Source of the DNA: Guyparkeria sp.
GTDB taxonomy: Bacteria; Pseudomonadota; Gammaproteobacteria; Halothiobacillales; Halothiobacillaceae
Direction: 5' to 3'
DNA: 44,120 nucleotides
Assembly: GCA_024636755.1 (NCBI GenBank)
Contig: JAGXGL010000014.1
Location: forward strand, 1-44,120
Shown: in pieces, positions 2,607 through 22,018 of the stretch
Position numbering within the stretch: position 1 is the first letter of the stretch
How the letters are laid out: every line of letters begins with the position of its first letter
Made by a program: the position numbers and the translations under genes
Notes under the pieces: generated by a model
The model's input: the letters and a program-made list of their open reading frames with translations, nothing else
The model's database searches: none
Told to the model about the DNA's origin: nothing

Positions 2607-3254
2607 GTGCAGGATTATCGTCAGGCCTTCGTTCAGTTTGCCGTGGAGCATCAGGCGCTCCGTTTCGGTGAGTTCACGCTCAAGTCCGGGCGTGTCAGCC
2701 CGTACTTCTTCAATGCCGGCGCGTTCGCCGACGGGCGGGCGCTGGCCGCACTGGGCGGGTTCTATGCCGATGCGATCCTGGACGCCGGCATCGAGTTCGA
2801 CGTGTTGTTCGGCCCGGCCTACAAGGGCATTCCGCTGGCCGCGGCCACGGCGATGGCCCTGGCCGAGCGTACCGGCGAGCCGGTGCCGTGGTGCTTCAAT
2901 CGCAAGGAGGCCAAGGATCATGGCGAGGGCGGCAACCTGGTCGGCGCGCCATTGGCAGGACGGGTGTTGATCATCGACGACGTGATCACCGCCGGTACGG
3001 CGATCCGTGAATCATTGGATCTGATCCGGGCGAACGACGCGACCGCGGTGGGGGTGGCCGTGATGATGGATCGTCAGGAGCGCGGGCAGGGCGAGCTCTC
3101 GGCGATCGGTGAGCTTAAGCGCGATCACGCGCTCGACGTCGTGGCGATTGCCAACCTGGATGGGTTGATCGAGTTCTGTGCCAACGACGCCACTCTGGCC
3201 CAGTCGGCCGAGGCGATGGCGGCCTATCGCCGCGAGTTCGGCGTGGCCGACTGA
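2607..3254 (+). CDS. pyrE: Orotate phosphoribosyltransferase
   Basis: 215 residues, close to the 213 of E. coli PyrE. The enzyme converts orotate and PRPP to orotidine 5'-phosphate in de novo pyrimidine synthesis in the cytosol. The N-terminal segment [19 protein letters not shown] binds orotate, [11 protein letters not shown] is typical, and the PRPP-binding motif [13 protein letters not shown] lies near residues 120-132. I chose the GTG at 2607 because the homologous protein begins [12 protein letters not shown] and a GAGGA sits 10 nt upstream; the in-frame ATG at 2550 adds 19 residues foreign to the family. It is followed by a strong hairpin shared with the convergent rpsT. Confidence 0.95.
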
Positions 3255-3280
3255 GATTGGGCGGTTGCCGCCACACAAAA

Positions 3281-3308
3281 AGAGGCCCCGCTGAAAAGCG
3301 GGGCCTCT
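3281..3308. terminator. Bidirectional terminator between pyrE and rpsT
   Basis: A perfect 12-bp stem (AGAGGCCCCGCT paired with AGCGGGGCCTCT) closes a GAAA tetraloop. On the minus strand the stem is followed by a run of five T residues, so it should be a good intrinsic terminator for rpsT. On the plus strand only TT follows, so termination of pyrE would be weaker. Confidence 0.9.
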
Positions 3309-3362
3309 TGCGTTCCGGCGGTGGCGCTGCGGGTAAACCCGCGTGCCACTAAACGGACGAGA

Positions 3363-3623
3363 TCAGATCGACTTGATGCGATTGACCAGGGTCGACTTGC
3401 GACGCGCAGCGGTATTGCGCTTGAGAATGCCCTTGTTCACCATCCGGTCGAGGACCGGCTGGGCAGCACTGTAGGCTTGTTGCGCCTTTTCCGCATCACC
3501 GTCTTTCACGGCCGTGATGACGGCCTTGTAGGCGGTGCGTACCTGCGAGCGCATTGCCATGTTGTGCTGGCGGGCTTTCTCCGCCTGGCGAACGCGCTTT
3601 TTGGCTTGAGCGGTATTGGCCAC
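3363..3623 (-). CDS. rpsT: 30S ribosomal protein S20
   Basis: 86 residues (E. coli S20 has 87). It binds 16S rRNA early in 30S assembly. The sequence ANTAQAKKRVRQAEKARQHN and the C-terminal KRNTAARRKSTLVNRIKSI are characteristic. Translation starts at a GTG at 3623, preceded by GAGGAG about 8 nt upstream. Non-ATG starts are also known for this gene in E. coli (UUG), where S20 represses its own translation, so a weak start may be regulatory. The long minus-strand frame running on into priA is an overlap artefact. A good promoter lies about 70 nt upstream. Confidence 0.97.
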   Translation of the reverse strand: MANTAQAKKRVRQAEKARQHNMAMRSQVRTAYKAVITAVKDGDAEKAQQAYSAAQPVLDRMVNKGILKRNTAARRKSTLVNRIKSI

Positions 3624-3690
3624 GGGTAAACTCCTCGATTCGGCTATAAGGTCGGATGAGCTTGATGTAAATATCAATTCAAGGCGCGGG

Positions 3691-3718
3691 ATTATGCCAT
3701 ACGGTCGGGGATAGTCAA
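3691..3718 (-). promoter_or_regulatory. Sigma-70-type promoter for rpsT
   Basis: On the minus strand TTGACT and CATAAT are separated by 16 nt. Both hexamers match the consensus in five of six positions. Start of transcription would fall near 3685, giving a leader of roughly 60 nt before the GTG start of rpsT. Confidence 0.7.
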
Positions 3719-3830
3719 GCAACCAACGACTAAGTGGGTGACGTCCCACCTCGGATGCTTGCCCACCTTTTCCCGGTGTCGTCCGTTCTTGGTCGACGGC
3801 GACCGCCGCGCCTGCGGTATCCTCCGCGTC

Positions 3831-7725
<3,895 letters not shown>

Positions 7726-17111: not shown

Positions 17112-17225
17112 TTAGAGACAGCTAATAAACATGGCCTGCTCGCCCCCTCCGGATCGGCCCAGTCGAACGGCCGGCCCGGCGTGAGGTCCCCGAAGGCGAA
17201 AGCGGGCACACCGGAGGAAAAGGCA

Positions 17226-18251
17226 ATGGAATTCAAAGAGCAGTTCCAGGTAACGCGCCGTCGTTTTTTGCGCAACATCGGGGTCACCGCCGGCCTCGCC
17301 GCCGCGCCCCTGTCATGGTCCTCGCGTGTGTTCGCCGAGGAAAAACTGGTGATCGAAGGGCCGCCGATGCCGGACATCCCGGCCACCGAGATCACCGAGA
17401 ACGTCTACATGATCGTCTCGCCCTGGGGGTTCCCCTCCGAGGAGAACCAGGGAATGATGAGCAACATCACCTTCGCCATCACCGAGAAGGGTGTCGTGGT
17501 GATCGACAGCGGCGCCTCCTTGCAGATTGGTCGCATGGCCTTGCGCCAGATCCGAGAAATCACCGAAAAGCCCATTGCAGCGGTCTTCAACACGCACTAC
17601 CACGGTGATCACTGGCTGGGTAACCACGCCTTCGTCAACGAGAACCCGGACGTGCCGATTTACGCGCACGAGAAGACCGCCTCGGCCATTCGCACCAACC
17701 AGGGCGAATTCTGGGTCAGCCTGATGGAACGCTCCACGGGTAACGCGATCGAGGGCACCGTGGTGACACCGCCGAACAAGGTGGTTGGTCATGGCGACGA
17801 GATTGATTTCGGCGACCTCACGATTCGCGTGCATTTCTACGGCACCGCGCATACCCCGTCGGATATCAGCCTCGAGCTGGTGGAAGAGCGGATCGTTCAC
17901 GTTGGCGACATCGCGATGAACAATCGCATCGCCTACATGGACGACGGCAGCTTCCTCGGGACCTTCAAGGCGTTCGATGCCCTTGAGCAGAACGTGCCGG
18001 ATGCGTTCTGGATTCCGGCCCACGGCTTTCCGGCCTACGATCTGCTCGAGCACAATCGCATCTTCTTTCAGGGCATCTACGAGTCTGCCGAGAAGGCCGT
18101 CGAGGAGATGGCCGGCCCGAGTCAGGCGAAAGCGTATGCACTGGAGGACGAGCGGGTGCAGTACTACGCCCCGGTAACCAACGGTTTCGATCAGAATATC
18201 GGCAAGTACGCCTCGCTCGCGTTTCTCGAGGCCGAAGCGGCTGCCTTCTAA
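17226..18251 (+). CDS. Tat-exported metallo-beta-lactamase-fold hydrolase, SoxH-like
   Basis: 341 residues. A twin-arginine leader (TRRRFLRNI, residues 10-18, then a hydrophobic stretch to VFA, 34-37) predicts folded export to the periplasm. The metal-binding motif HYHGDH at 124-129, a His in GTAHTPSD, the Asp in HVGDIAMNN and the late His in PAHGFP give a complete set of zinc ligands. Proteins of this shape occur in sulfur-oxidiser clusters as SoxH and near quinoprotein dehydrogenases; the substrate is unknown. The start at 17226 follows GGAGGA by 7 nt. It is the first gene of a six-gene block that continues with YeeE/YedE-type transporters, and it is transcribed divergently from zur. Confidence 0.85.
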   Translation: MEFKEQFQVTRRRFLRNIGVTAGLAAAPLSWSSRVFAEEKLVIEGPPMPDIPATEITENVYMIVSPWGFPSEENQGMMSNITFAITEKGVVVIDSGASLQIGRMALRQIREITEKPIAAVFNTHYHGDHWLGNHAFVNENPDVPIYAHEKTASAIRTNQGEFWVSLMERSTGNAIEGTVVTPPNKVVGHGDEIDFGDLTIRVHFYGTAHTPSDISLELVEERIVHVGDIAMNNRIAYMDDGSFLGTFKAFDALEQNVPDAFWIPAHGFPAYDLLEHNRIFFQGIYESAEKAVEEMAGPSQAKAYALEDERVQYYAPVTNGFDQNIGKYASLAFLEAEAAAF

Positions 18252-18366: not shown

Positions 18367-18879
18367 ATGTCTTGCCAAGTTAGGCCGTTATGGCCCCCCT
18401 TTATCGCCGGCATCGTGCTCGGCCTGGTCGTTTTGCTCACCTTCGTGCTGGTGGGCAACGGCATGGGCTCTTCCGGTGCCTTCGCCCGCGTGGCCACCGA
18501 GATCGGTCTTCAGGTCGCACCCGAGGCCACTCGTGAGAACGCCTACCTCGGTGGCATGGCGCAGGGAAATCCGCTCGCGGCATGGATCGTGGTCGCCGCC
18601 ATCGGCACCCTGATCGGCGCGATCCTCGCGTCGGTTTCCTCCGGGCGGTTCCGGGTCAAGGTCGATCGCGGTTCCGGCCGGATCGGGGTCGCGCCGCGCC
18701 TGCTGCTCGCCCTGGGTGGCGGCCTGCTGGCCGGCTTCGGTTCGCGGCTGGCGGCTGGCTGCACCAGTGGCGTCGGCCTTTCCAATACCGCCATGCTGGG
18801 CGTGGCGGGCTTCGTCTTCCTGGTCGTGTTCTTCGTGGTCGGGATATTGATCAGTCTGTTGATGCGGAGGGTCTGGTAA
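18367..18879 (+). CDS. YeeE/YedE-type sulfur transporter, first half
   Basis: 170 residues with about four hydrophobic segments. The last part contains LAAGCTSGVGLSNTA, the Cys-bearing loop seen in YeeE/YedE (TsuA) thiosulfate-uptake proteins and their half-size relatives, in which paired Cys residues relay thiosulfate by transient hydrogen bonds. AGGAGG lies 11 nt before the ATG. It overlaps the following half gene as TAATG, so both are made together and probably form one transporter. Single-chain YeeE has about 350-400 residues; here the two halves add up to 391. A long periplasmic or cytoplasmic loop between TM1 and TM2 (about 35-65) is unusual. Confidence 0.85.
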   Translation: MSCQVRPLWPPFIAGIVLGLVVLLTFVLVGNGMGSSGAFARVATEIGLQVAPEATRENAYLGGMAQGNPLAAWIVVAAIGTLIGAILASVSSGRFRVKVDRGSGRIGVAPRLLLALGGGLLAGFGSRLAAGCTSGVGLSNTAMLGVAGFVFLVVFFVVGILISLLMRRVW

Positions 18880-19544
18880 TGGATTACGGCATCGCGGGTA
18901 CCGCACTGGCCACCGGCTTGTTGTTCGGCTTCGTGCTCGAGCAGGCCGGTTTTGGCTCCCCCTGCAAACTTACCGCCCAGTTTCGCCTCACCGACTGGTC
19001 GGTGTTCAAGGTCATGTTCACGGCCATCATCGTCGCGGCGATCGGCATCCTGTTGCTGCAGCTGAACAACACCTTCGGCGCACAGGGTTTCTTCGTTGCC
19101 GAAACGTATCTCTGGGGCACCGTGCTGGGGGCCGTGTTGATCGGCGCCGGTTTCGCCATTGGTGGCTACTGTCCCGGCACCTCCGTGGTCGGGTTCGGTA
19201 GTGGCCGGATCGACGGACTGATATTCATGCTTGGCATGGTGATCGGTGTCTGGGCCTTCGCCGGCGTCTACGACAGCGATTTCATCCAGGCCGCGGTCAA
19301 CGGGATGCAGGTATCGGCTCGCACCGTGCCGGAATTGCTGGGTGTCTCGCCGTGGCTGGTGGTGGTCGCGATGCTGCTGGTGCTGGCGGGTGGTTTCTTT
19401 GCCGGTCGCGCGCTTGAGCAGCGTAGCCAGGGTGTTTACAGCGCCGAGGACATCACCGAGGGGCGTGACCCCGGCAACCATGATGAACTCGGCCGCGACC
19501 TGGGTCGCGAGGCCAGCGCCGCGCGCCGCACCGACGACGATTGA
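18879..19544 (+). CDS. YeeE/YedE-type sulfur transporter, second half
   Basis: 221 residues. The N-terminus GLLFGFVLEQAGFGSPCKLTAQF and the internal GFAIGGYCPGTSVVGFGSG are the two Cys-containing signatures of the YeeE/YedE family. About five transmembrane segments are followed by a charged, soluble tail of roughly 45 residues (from LEQRSQGVYSAED to the end). Translation is coupled to the first half by overlapping TAATG. Together they should move a small sulfur compound (thiosulfate is the known TsuA substrate) across the inner membrane; direction and substrate are inference. The Cys-repeat protein gene follows 70 bp downstream. Confidence 0.87.
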   Translation: MDYGIAGTALATGLLFGFVLEQAGFGSPCKLTAQFRLTDWSVFKVMFTAIIVAAIGILLLQLNNTFGAQGFFVAETYLWGTVLGAVLIGAGFAIGGYCPGTSVVGFGSGRIDGLIFMLGMVIGVWAFAGVYDSDFIQAAVNGMQVSARTVPELLGVSPWLVVVAMLLVLAGGFFAGRALEQRSQGVYSAEDITEGRDPGNHDELGRDLGREASAARRTDDD

Positions 19545-19614
19545 GCCGCCGAGGCTTCGCGATTTCGCGGACCGGCCGACGGCCGCCCGCCCTTATTCAG
19601 AGGAGAATGATCAG

Positions 19615-20175
19615 ATGGAATCGAAGAAGATCGCCCGACAGGCCCGCGCCCGCCGCGCGCTCAAGTTGTCCGTGCCGGCCATGGCGTTCACCGTGGGCGC
19701 CTCGCTTGCCGCGACCACCATGCTGCCGCTGTCGGCCGCGGCGCAGACCCGGGGTGGCAATCCATGCGCTCCCTCCGCGCGTGGCGGCAACCCCTGTGCC
19801 CCGTCGTCCCGTGGGGGGAATCCTTGCGCCCCGTCGGCGCGAGGTGGCAATCCCTGCGCGCCCTCGGCTCGGGGCGGGAATCCGTGCGCTCCATCGGCTC
19901 GCGGTGGCAATCCCTGTGCGCCCTCGGCTCGGGGAGGCAACCCTTGTGCACCATCGGCTCGGGGCGGCAACCCCTGCGCACCGTCGGCTCGCGGTGGTAA
20001 TCCCTGTGCGCCATCGGCCCGAGGTGGCAACCCCTGTGCGCCGGCCGCTCGTGGTGGCAATCCCTGCGCCCCAGCCGCTCGGGGAGGTAATCCCTGTGCG
20101 CCGGCAGCCCGAGGCGGCAACCCTTGCGCCCCGGCGGGGCGTGGCAGCAACCCCTGCGCACCGGGCGGTCAGTGA
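19615..20175 (+). CDS. Secreted protein of fourteen RGGNPCAPSA-type repeats
   Basis: 186 residues. Residues 1-45 are a long signal peptide: a basic start (KKIARQARARRALK), a hydrophobic core (VPAMAFTVGASLAATTMLPL) and probable cleavage after SAAA. Everything after residue 45 is fourteen uninterrupted 10-residue repeats, consensus RGGNPCAPSA, ending in a single Q. Each repeat has one Cys, so the mature chain carries 14 Cys at exact 10-residue spacing and no aromatic or acidic residues. Unit 2 has SS, units 10-12 have AA, unit 13 AG and unit 14 RGSNPCAPGG. Codons vary widely while residues do not, which points to selection on the protein. AGGAG lies 9 nt before ATG 19615. I do not recognise a named family; a periplasmic thiol or metal carrier is inference. 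Confidence 0.88.
   Translation: MESKKIARQARARRALKLSVPAMAFTVGASLAATTMLPLSAAAQTRGGNPCAPSARGGNPCAPSSRGGNPCAPSARGGNPCAPSARGGNPCAPSARGGNPCAPSARGGNPCAPSARGGNPCAPSARGGNPCAPSARGGNPCAPAARGGNPCAPAARGGNPCAPAARGGNPCAPAGRGSNPCAPGGQ
19750..20169 (+). repeat. Fourteen 30-bp coding repeats
   Basis: The array has 14 units of exactly 30 bp with no spacer and no frame change. Units differ at third codon positions: Gly as GGT, GGC, GGG or GGA, Cys as TGC or TGT, Pro as CCC, CCT or CCG. The copies are therefore not recent duplicates. Confidence 0.95.
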
Positions 20176-20206
20176 TCGAGTGCCGCTCACGGTCTGAGAT
20201 GTCTCG

Positions 20207-20905
20207 ATGAGTGACGCCCCGTCCCATCGGTTGCCCGAGGACTGGCTTGATGCCGGTCTGGCGGCCATTGATGAATGGGGGTCGATCCAGGCGGCGCTTG
20301 CCGCCGACAACCAGACCGTGCTTACCGAATTGTTCCGGGATCACCCGGAAGACGGCTTCGACTACTGGGCGCATTTTCCCCCCGACGATGCTCGAGACCC
20401 GGTTAGCGGGGCCCGTTTTTACTATCACGCGCATGAACCGGCTGAGTGGACGCTGGCCGAACACGGCCACTTTCACCTCTTCATTGCCGATGACGACGAG
20501 CCAGACTTCGCTCACGTCGTCGCGGTATCGATGGACAATCAGGGGCGTGCGCGGCGGTTGTTCACCACCAACGCCTGGGTGACCGGTGAAACGGTTCGCT
20601 CGGCCACTGAGCTGCTGGCGCGATTGCCGAACGCTTTCGAGATCAACCGGTCTCGTCCGTCGTGGCTGGTGGGGCGGTGGTTGACGGCCCTGGTGGCGCT
20701 GCTGATGCCACAGATTCGCGAGTTGCTCGAGGCGCGCGATCGCGCCTTGACGACCGATGCCGGCGAGTGGCCTGATCCGGAGGTGCTGGCGGATCGAGAC
20801 CGGCATGTCTTGAGCGAATGCCCGCTGGACATGGGCGCCATACGGGCCGAGTGGTCGCGGCGCCTCGAGGCCATGCAATCCCAATTGGTTTTCCCGCCCG
20901 GCTGA
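20207..20905 (+). CDS. Unknown soluble protein with YYHAH and EHGHFHLF motifs
   Basis: 232 residues, no signal peptide or clear membrane helix apart from a hydrophobic stretch near WLTALVALLMPQI. The central region holds two His clusters, RFYYHAHEPAEW and LAEHGHFHLFI, followed by ANVVAVSMDNQGR-type strands (seen as HVVAVSMDNQGRARRLFTTNAWVTGE). Such spacing could bind a metal, but no catalytic family is evident. It resembles what I remember as DUF6969 proteins; this is from memory and uncertain. It starts 31 bp after the Cys-repeat gene and ends 62 bp before the rhodanese, so it belongs to the same transcript. Confidence 0.8.
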   Translation: MSDAPSHRLPEDWLDAGLAAIDEWGSIQAALAADNQTVLTELFRDHPEDGFDYWAHFPPDDARDPVSGARFYYHAHEPAEWTLAEHGHFHLFIADDDEPDFAHVVAVSMDNQGRARRLFTTNAWVTGETVRSATELLARLPNAFEINRSRPSWLVGRWLTALVALLMPQIRELLEARDRALTTDAGEWPDPEVLADRDRHVLSECPLDMGAIRAEWSRRLEAMQSQLVFPPG

Positions 20906-20967
20906 GGGCGGCTTTTCCGACGCCACTTGGTGTCGTTTGTTGATGCACGAAGAAGGAGTTGAGTCAT

Positions 20968-21966
20968 ATGGAATTCAAGCGGTTTCTCGCTGTTCCCGCC
21001 GGGGCGGCCGCCCTGGCCATCGCGCAAGGGGCCTGGGCACTGGATGTGCCGGGTCCGGTAGTTGACCCGCAGTGGCTGAATGACAACCTCGAGCAGGTCA
21101 CCGTTCTCCAGATTGCCGGGTCGGAAAAGGCGTTTGCCATGGCGCCGAAGTACGAGAAGGTCGAGGGGAAGAAAGTCGTTTCCGTCGTCTCCGGTCACGT
21201 GCCGGGTGCCCAATTCGTCGATTGGGGCAAGGTGCGCGTCGAGCGCATGGAAAACGGCAAGAAGGTCGGCAAGCTGATCCCCGAAAAGGCCGACTTCGAA
21301 TCCTTCGTCCAGGCCCTGGGCGTGGACAAGGACGACACGGTCGTGATCGTGCCGTTGGGCCTGTCCGGCTCCGACTTCACCAAGGCCACCCGCCTGTACT
21401 GGCAGATGAAGTACTTCGGCCATGACGACATGGCTATCCTGGACGGTGGTCTAGCCAACTGGCTGGCGGCAGGTTTTGATGCCGGCACCGGGCAGTCGGA
21501 GAAGATGGATGCGGGTGACTGGGTAGCGACCGACGAGCGTGACGAGATCCTCGCCACCTATGCCGAGACGCGCGAGGCAGCGGACTCGAACGGCGGCGGT
21601 ATCCAGCTGCTGGATGCCCGCCCACCGAACCAGTACCTGGGCGTGTTCAGCAAGTCCAAGACCGTGCCCGGCCACCTGCCCGGCGCCAAGAACGTGCCGA
21701 CCAGCGTGCTCGTGCGGGCCGATGGTGCGGCGGCCAATTTCCTGCCGGCGTCCAGCTATCGCTCGATCATGGAATTCAAGGACATCGATCCGAGTGGCGC
21801 GGCGATCGCGTATTGCAACTCGGGCAACCTGGCTTCCGGCGTGTGGTTCGTCGCAAGCGAAATCATGGGCAATGATGACGTCGCGTTGTACGACGGCTCC
21901 ATGAAGGAATACGGCATGTATGTCGACGATGGAGCGACCTCGGTCAACCCGGCGCAGCTCTACTGA
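20968..21966 (+). CDS. Secreted two-domain rhodanese-type sulfurtransferase
   Basis: 332 residues. The signal peptide is MEFKRFLAVPAGAAALAIA to AWA. The first rhodanese-like domain (about 30-170) carries the DGGLANWLAAGF segment but no catalytic Cys. The second (about 185-332) has LLDARPPNQYLG, GHLPGAKNVP and the active loop YCNSGNLAS with Cys283. Classical loops read CRxG; here Asn replaces Arg, which may change the sulfur donor. Rhodaneses move sulfane sulfur from thiosulfate or persulfides to thiol acceptors. ATG 20968 has AAGGAG 9 nt upstream; a TTG at 20959 is too close to it. It is the last gene before a strong terminator. Confidence 0.87.
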   Translation: MEFKRFLAVPAGAAALAIAQGAWALDVPGPVVDPQWLNDNLEQVTVLQIAGSEKAFAMAPKYEKVEGKKVVSVVSGHVPGAQFVDWGKVRVERMENGKKVGKLIPEKADFESFVQALGVDKDDTVVIVPLGLSGSDFTKATRLYWQMKYFGHDDMAILDGGLANWLAAGFDAGTGQSEKMDAGDWVATDERDEILATYAETREAADSNGGGIQLLDARPPNQYLGVFSKSKTVPGHLPGAKNVPTSVLVRADGAAANFLPASSYRSIMEFKDIDPSGAAIAYCNSGNLASGVWFVASEIMGNDDVALYDGSMKEYGMYVDDGATSVNPAQLY

Positions 21967-21990: not shown

Positions 21991-22018
21991 AACCCCGCCG
22001 ACCGGCGGGGTTTTTTTT
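21991..22018 (+). terminator. Intrinsic terminator after the rhodanese gene
   Basis: AACCCCGCC and GGCGGGGTT form a 9-bp GC-rich stem with a GACC loop, followed by an unbroken run of eight T (22011-22018, the first two shared with the stem). It lies 25 bp after the rhodanese stop and ends the six-gene block. Confidence 0.93.

Follow-up and report, generated by a model that had tools for sequence, protein, structure and literature searches.

An exported-type cysteine-repeat protein and its DUF6969 partner in Guyparkeria suggest a possible new system for extracytoplasmic sulfur or metal handling

RESULTS AND DISCUSSION

The DUF6969 family (PF22308), which no paper in the literature searched names, is almost always encoded close to exported Cys-repeat peptides across the Pseudomonadota, and this pairing gives an uncharacterized family a testable substrate. 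One such pair lies in a 44,120-nucleotide stretch of a contig from Guyparkeria, a sulfur oxidizer (Halothiobacillaceae; 79%-complete genome assembly), which we refer to as the window. The locus combines an intact array under selection, a conserved operon, a conserved NPC motif, and invariant His and Glu residues in DUF6969. Together these features suggest that sulfur or metal is dealt with beyond the cytoplasmic membrane by a system not yet described.

A cysteine array held at the protein level

The Cys-repeat protein is encoded on the forward strand at 19615..20175 (187 codons with the stop, 186 residues) and comprises a predicted N-terminal export signal (about residues 1-44) followed by 14 units of 10 residues of the RGGNPCAPSA type, encoded in frame by exactly 14 repeats of 30 bp at 19750..20169. 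The array's Tandem Repeats Finder score of 324-418 is far above that of every other array in the window. A first-pass annotation made from the sequence described fourteen exact repeats; this holds for the 30-bp spacing and the 14 in-frame units, but only 8 of the 14 units are identical RGGNPCAPSA. R, G (position 2), N, P, C, A, and P are kept in 14/14 units, with variation confined to positions 3, 9, and 10. Differences among unit comparisons amount to 62% at third codon positions, 8% at first, and 4% at second, and the comparison of synonymous with nonsynonymous change between units that the annotation had called for gives a pN/pS of 0.08, indicating an array old enough for silent divergence yet held at the protein level. 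These values, together with conserved arrays in relatives, bear out its proposal of selection on protein sequence. Chance or artefact as the origin of the array was considered and is ruled out by the codon statistics, the conserved arrays in relatives, and 0/26 control pieces. Antisense open reading frames also cover the array on the minus strand (e.g., 19688-20926, 412 aa, and 19611-20150), and we attribute them to the GC-rich repeats, given that changes in the forward frame are almost all synonymous.

The N terminus is basic, then hydrophobic, and ends in SAAAQT (inspection and hydropathy, with no signal-peptide program); its signal-like appearance suggests export, and its conservation in relatives supports the original description of a secreted protein. 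The mature part here contains 14 Cys and 14 Arg and no D, E, F, W, Y, K, or H, as had been noted. No match was found to Pfam and NCBIfam profiles, including DUF2282, and a literature search on the motifs NPCAAK, NPCAP, and NPCNP returned unrelated acronyms only. The AF2 model has a mean pLDDT of 38.5 and no structure for the array, which is consistent with, rather than proof of, an intrinsically disordered protein.

In-frame arrays of 4 to 14 complete units that keep NPCAP occur in Guyparkeria and its sister genus, so that repeat number, flagged for checking in relatives, is variable; none of the arrays seen in the family genomes was frameshifted or free of Cys. Net charge and aromatic content also vary among relatives (D and E occur, and one form of the repeat, in L034/G172, reads GYGGGNPCAPG), and the positive charge and lack of acidic and aromatic residues are thus correct for this protein but not kept in relatives. 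Weak protein matches in two further genomes (G016 and G046) were taken as low-complexity noise.

A conserved operon with sulfur transport genes

The operon lies on the forward strand and opens, as in relatives, with a gene for a metallo-beta-lactamase-fold protein (17223..18251; PF00753, E 7e-24) that appears to be SoxH related and Tat-type exported and matches TIGR04559/TIGR04558 (SoxH-related quinoprotein-relay metallohydrolases, NCBIfam) below cut-off. Two halves of a YeeE/YedE sulfur transporter follow: half 1 at 18367..18879 (PF04143, E 7e-19), with a weak match, far below cut-off, to the NCBIfam TsuA model, and a DUF6691-like half 2 at 18879..19544, a stop-free frame whose PF04143/PF20398 matches fall in the overlapping longer open reading frame 18582-19544. 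The repeat gene comes next, and its stop (20175) lies 31 bp from the ATG (20207) of the DUF6969 gene (20207..20905; PF22308, E 2.6e-57). A two-domain rhodanese with a predicted export signal (20968..21966; PF00581, E 6e-19; active-site loop CNSGNLA) completes the series, and a terminator-like hairpin with a T-run at 21991..22012, found by consensus scan only, closes the cluster on its 3' side.

By tblastn, the order metallo-beta-lactamase, YeeE, YeeE, repeat, DUF6969, rhodanese is common to Guyparkeria and Halothiobacillus relatives, with the PF04143 transporter genes in conserved order, and a Rhodoblastus MAG of the Alphaproteobacteria (L027) carries YeeE-YeeE-repeat-DUF6969. Pfam searches found no MNIO (PF05114) among the window operon genes; the only MNIO detected in the genome is on another contig with other neighbors (G000:C25:14055-14834, L165). 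Action of this MNIO in trans in Guyparkeria is conceivable, but its location on a separate contig led us to set the idea aside. An MNIO gene lies outside the repeat/DUF6969 operon in all Guyparkeria and Halothiobacillus genomes checked.

DUF6969 and Cys-repeat peptides occur together

We ran a DNA pattern of two neighboring NPC-type motifs over 369 gammaproteobacterial genomes. It was present in 10, six of them outside the genus, and a reversed control pattern had no match among the genomes listed. Of these 369 genomes, 30 carried DUF6969: 9/10 with the NPC pattern versus 21/359 others (Fisher exact, p=4e-10) and, with the genus left out, 5/6 versus 21/359 (p=7e-6). The NPC-repeat gene and DUF6969 lie within about 1.5 kb of each other in all five nongenus co-occurrences.

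The converse search started from DUF6969. An independent sample of 398 Pseudomonadota yielded 20 DUF6969 genes outside the source genome; with one cut off by its contig (L108) left out, 17/19 lie no more than about 2 kb from a Cys-repeat peptide of exported or lipoprotein-like type. The class sample gave 23/26 outside the genus, so that in the two random genome samples pooled 40/45 assessable DUF6969 genes have an exported Cys-repeat peptide within about 2 kb and 5/45 have none that we could see. The weakest cases, with two to a few Cys (L116, L149, L153, L155, and L159), were judged by eye; an automatic criterion found a peptide in 14/18 near DUF6969 versus 0/26 control 4-kb pieces. The peptide is on the opposite strand to DUF6969 at three loci (L103, L104, and L106). 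NPC-repeat proteins without DUF6969 occur in G087 and in L035, where 10 kb was seen; the latter is a peptide at 5001-5150 in a Proteobacteria MAG.

The peptide motifs near DUF6969 are diverse (NPCAAK, NPCGP, SPCGL/SPCSLD, KPCAAK, GCCAAEGCC, CAAGCAAC, AKCGAKCGA, and GCCGCCGCC), suggesting a conserved partner gene and a peptide free to vary apart from its cysteines, by analogy with the precursor and maturase of exported peptide systems. Two DUF6969-linked peptides (L153 and L155) have only two SPC motifs, and the regular 14-fold ladder is therefore probably not essential. The SPCGL/SPCSLD peptides of the class sample (L152-L162) sit directly between YeeE and DUF6969. Their N termini have in common a stretch resembling IMGSAxGLAAIAxAIDHTRHxLPEP, which may be a membrane anchor that stays uncleaved and contains a conserved His.

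Features of DUF6969 and its neighbors

Over 44 DUF6969 sequences, H56, D61, H74, H76, E85, H86, H88, H90, H103, N122, W124, R177, and D178 (window numbering) are invariant or nearly so, a set that includes a His/Glu cluster. In the AF2 model (pLDDT 88.5, pTM 0.87), the His of H86/H88/H90 and H74/H76 fall at alternating positions on or next to predicted strands, an arrangement that could let them point the same way, as they would at a metal site. A Foldseek search of the model against PDB and BFVD gave no match at E <= 0.001. No signal peptide is apparent on inspection of the N terminus; DUF6969 is presumably cytoplasmic and may be an enzyme.

Among 103 neighbor open reading frames of DUF6969 loci, the leading Pfam families are Sulf_transp (12), Rhodanese (10), and SoxA-TsdA cytochrome (6). 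Counted per locus (n=50; within 4.5 kb for YeeE and rhodanese), YeeE occurs at 20, rhodanese at 18, a SoxA-like gene at 7, an ECF sigma factor at 4, and MNIO at 2, and over half of the loci that pair DUF6969 with a peptide have neither YeeE nor rhodanese. The loop CN[ST]G[HNQ]LA is conserved at rhodanese-bearing loci. When 51 DUF6969 domains were placed in a tree, the YeeE-linked members fell into two or more separate parts and the SoxA-linked members into another, so the sulfur module is not a single recent acquisition.

At seven loci the SoxA/TsdA-like cytochrome is itself an NPC-repeat protein: these c-type cytochromes beside DUF6969 (L105, L107, L109, L110, L066, L069, and L070) carry NPC-type repeats at one or both ends. 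Two loci from different genera have DUF3179 genes (L107, 7733-8776, and L109, 9084-10220) close to DUF6969 and the NPC cytochrome. At L103 (6835-7728) a formylglycine-generating-enzyme-like gene (PF03781) adjoins DUF6969 and an NPC peptide; some PF03781 members have a cysteine-oxidizing fold. Both MNIO-bearing loci include a peptide, with the order peptide-peptide-DUF6969-MNIO-DUF2063 at L068 and DUF2282-MNIO-DUF2063-DoxX-peptide-DUF6969 at L115. In the latter (2610-6659, G738), a complete bufferin operon runs into an AKCGAKCGA-type exported peptide and DUF6969, which makes the locus well suited to testing how the two systems are related.

Proposed role and alternatives

The SoxT report (PMC11582611) calls the entry of sulfur into the cytoplasm poorly understood, states that SoxT proteins import sulfur for oxidation, and reports its delivery to the cytoplasm by the YeeE-like SoxT1A. 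We tentatively hypothesize, at somewhat short of even confidence, that the repeat protein is an exported, disordered multithiol carrier in periplasmic sulfur import that is handled by DUF6969 before export, the two genes forming a unit within a periplasmic sulfur-import module. In this scheme the rhodanese would charge the NPC thiols with sulfane sulfur or discharge them, and the array would hold and concentrate the sulfur close to the YeeE/YedE importer, which would hand it to the cytoplasm. Cytoplasmic DUF6969 would work on the peptide ahead of its export, its most likely role being that of a metal-dependent enzyme that modifies the peptide or protects its thiols. Sulfur as the ligand, and with it the carrier role, is suggested by gene context, which in the Guyparkeria lineage favors sulfur handling because the YeeE/YedE and rhodanese neighbors are conserved in relatives. 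The first-pass annotation had offered Cu or Zn binding, persulfide carriage, or crosslinking as guesses from composition, and it did not extend to the partner gene DUF6969, which proved the most telling feature of the locus; metal binding is kept alive by the links to bufferin (MNIO) clusters at other DUF6969 loci. Counting against the carrier are the loci with neither YeeE nor rhodanese, the five DUF6969 genes with no visible peptide, the NPC-repeat proteins that occur without DUF6969, and the failure of the DUF6969 model to match a solved structure.

The two MNIO-bearing loci, where copper is the expected ligand, are further evidence against the carrier and lead to its chief rival, which we consider unlikely but serious: the exported Cys peptide would be a modified (RiPP-type) chelator of copper or another soft metal, a bufferin-like buffer for which DUF6969 replaces or assists MNIO as maturase. 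The architecture is shared (an export signal, variable Cys repeats, and an adjacent cytoplasmic metalloenzyme-like gene), DUF6969 and a peptide lie within the MNIO clusters at L068 and L115, ECF sigma factors, known bufferin neighbors, occur at four DUF6969 loci, and EGKCG precursors likewise have variable Cys repeats with up to 58 Cys (PMC12452194). However, the window locus is without MNIO, the only one detected in the genome being on another contig, the repeat protein has no DUF2282 match, and the neighbors in the Guyparkeria lineage are sulfur genes rather than copper genes.

It is improbable, in our estimation, that the protein is an unmodified redox or thiol buffer with DUF6969 as a chaperone, export factor, or regulator rather than an enzyme. 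The predicted disorder and the free variation outside the Cys motif (NPCAAK, SPCGLD, GCCGCC, and AKCGAKCGA) would suit a simple thiol reservoir, but His56/74/76/86/88/90/103, Glu85, Asp61, and Arg177-Asp178, as conserved over the 44 sequences, look like an active or metal site and not a binding surface. We give very little credence to a disulfide-crosslinked structural or sulfur-globule envelope protein: a repetitive, Gly/Pro/Asn-rich exported protein in sulfur oxidizers and the GYGGGNPCAPG form would fit, yet the operon is the same where the peptide has just two Cys motifs, its neighborhood includes no genes for cell-wall or globule functions, and sulfur globule proteins are not known to be defined by Cys.

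Beyond the sulfur carrier in Guyparkeria, we entertain, with more doubt than conviction, a wider proposal in which DUF6969 would be a new metalloenzyme family that modifies Cys of exported xPC-repeat peptides before secretion. The products would be a class of exported cysteine RiPPs made independently of MNIO, with those of the YeeE/rhodanese type serving sulfur import, the SoxA/TsdA fusions serving c-type cytochromes, or others serving metal buffering. Modification of the peptides by DUF6969 would mean a cysteine-modifying enzyme, and an exported peptide, of a new class. Even without it, the module supplies candidates for the missing carriers that would link periplasmic rhodanese to YeeE/SoxT importers.

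Comparison with described systems

Bufferins and Buf_EGKCG/oxazolin precursors with MNIO (PF05114) are, like the peptides here, exported and Cys rich, some with variable Cys repeats, and bufferin-type precursors in Pseudomonadota lie beside a cytoplasmic iron enzyme with ECF sigma neighbors (PMC12452194); that MNIO survey makes no mention of DUF6969, YeeE, or rhodanese. The repeat protein has the bufferin feature of an export signal with Cys in the mature part, given its signal-like N terminus and 14 Cys, and by analogy it may work like a bufferin-type exported Cys-peptide system. The window locus is nevertheless not a bufferin system, as the MNIO and DUF2282 features are absent: its partner gene is DUF6969, by Pfam unrelated to MNIO, it has no DUF2063 or DoxX, its motif is xPC instead of EGKCG, and its context is sulfur transport. 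YeeE/YedE sulfur import systems (TsuA and SoxT) share the two-part transporter with the window operon, but those described use YeeD/TusA-type or SoxYZ partners, and no Cys-repeat peptide or DUF6969 was found in the accessible part of the SoxT paper (PMC11582611).

The window locus fits a grouping that we propose here as DUF6969-linked Cys-repeat peptides, defined by an exported-type Cys-repeat peptide within about 2 kb of PF22308; here the two genes are 31 bp apart. Sulfur globule proteins are, like the repeat protein, exported, repetitive, Gly/Asn-rich proteins of sulfur oxidizers, but they are not known to form Cys ladders or to be linked to DUF6969. Metallothioneins are likewise small, disordered, and Cys rich; they are cytoplasmic with CxC/CC clusters, whereas the repeat protein has isolated Cys ten residues apart and a putative export signal.
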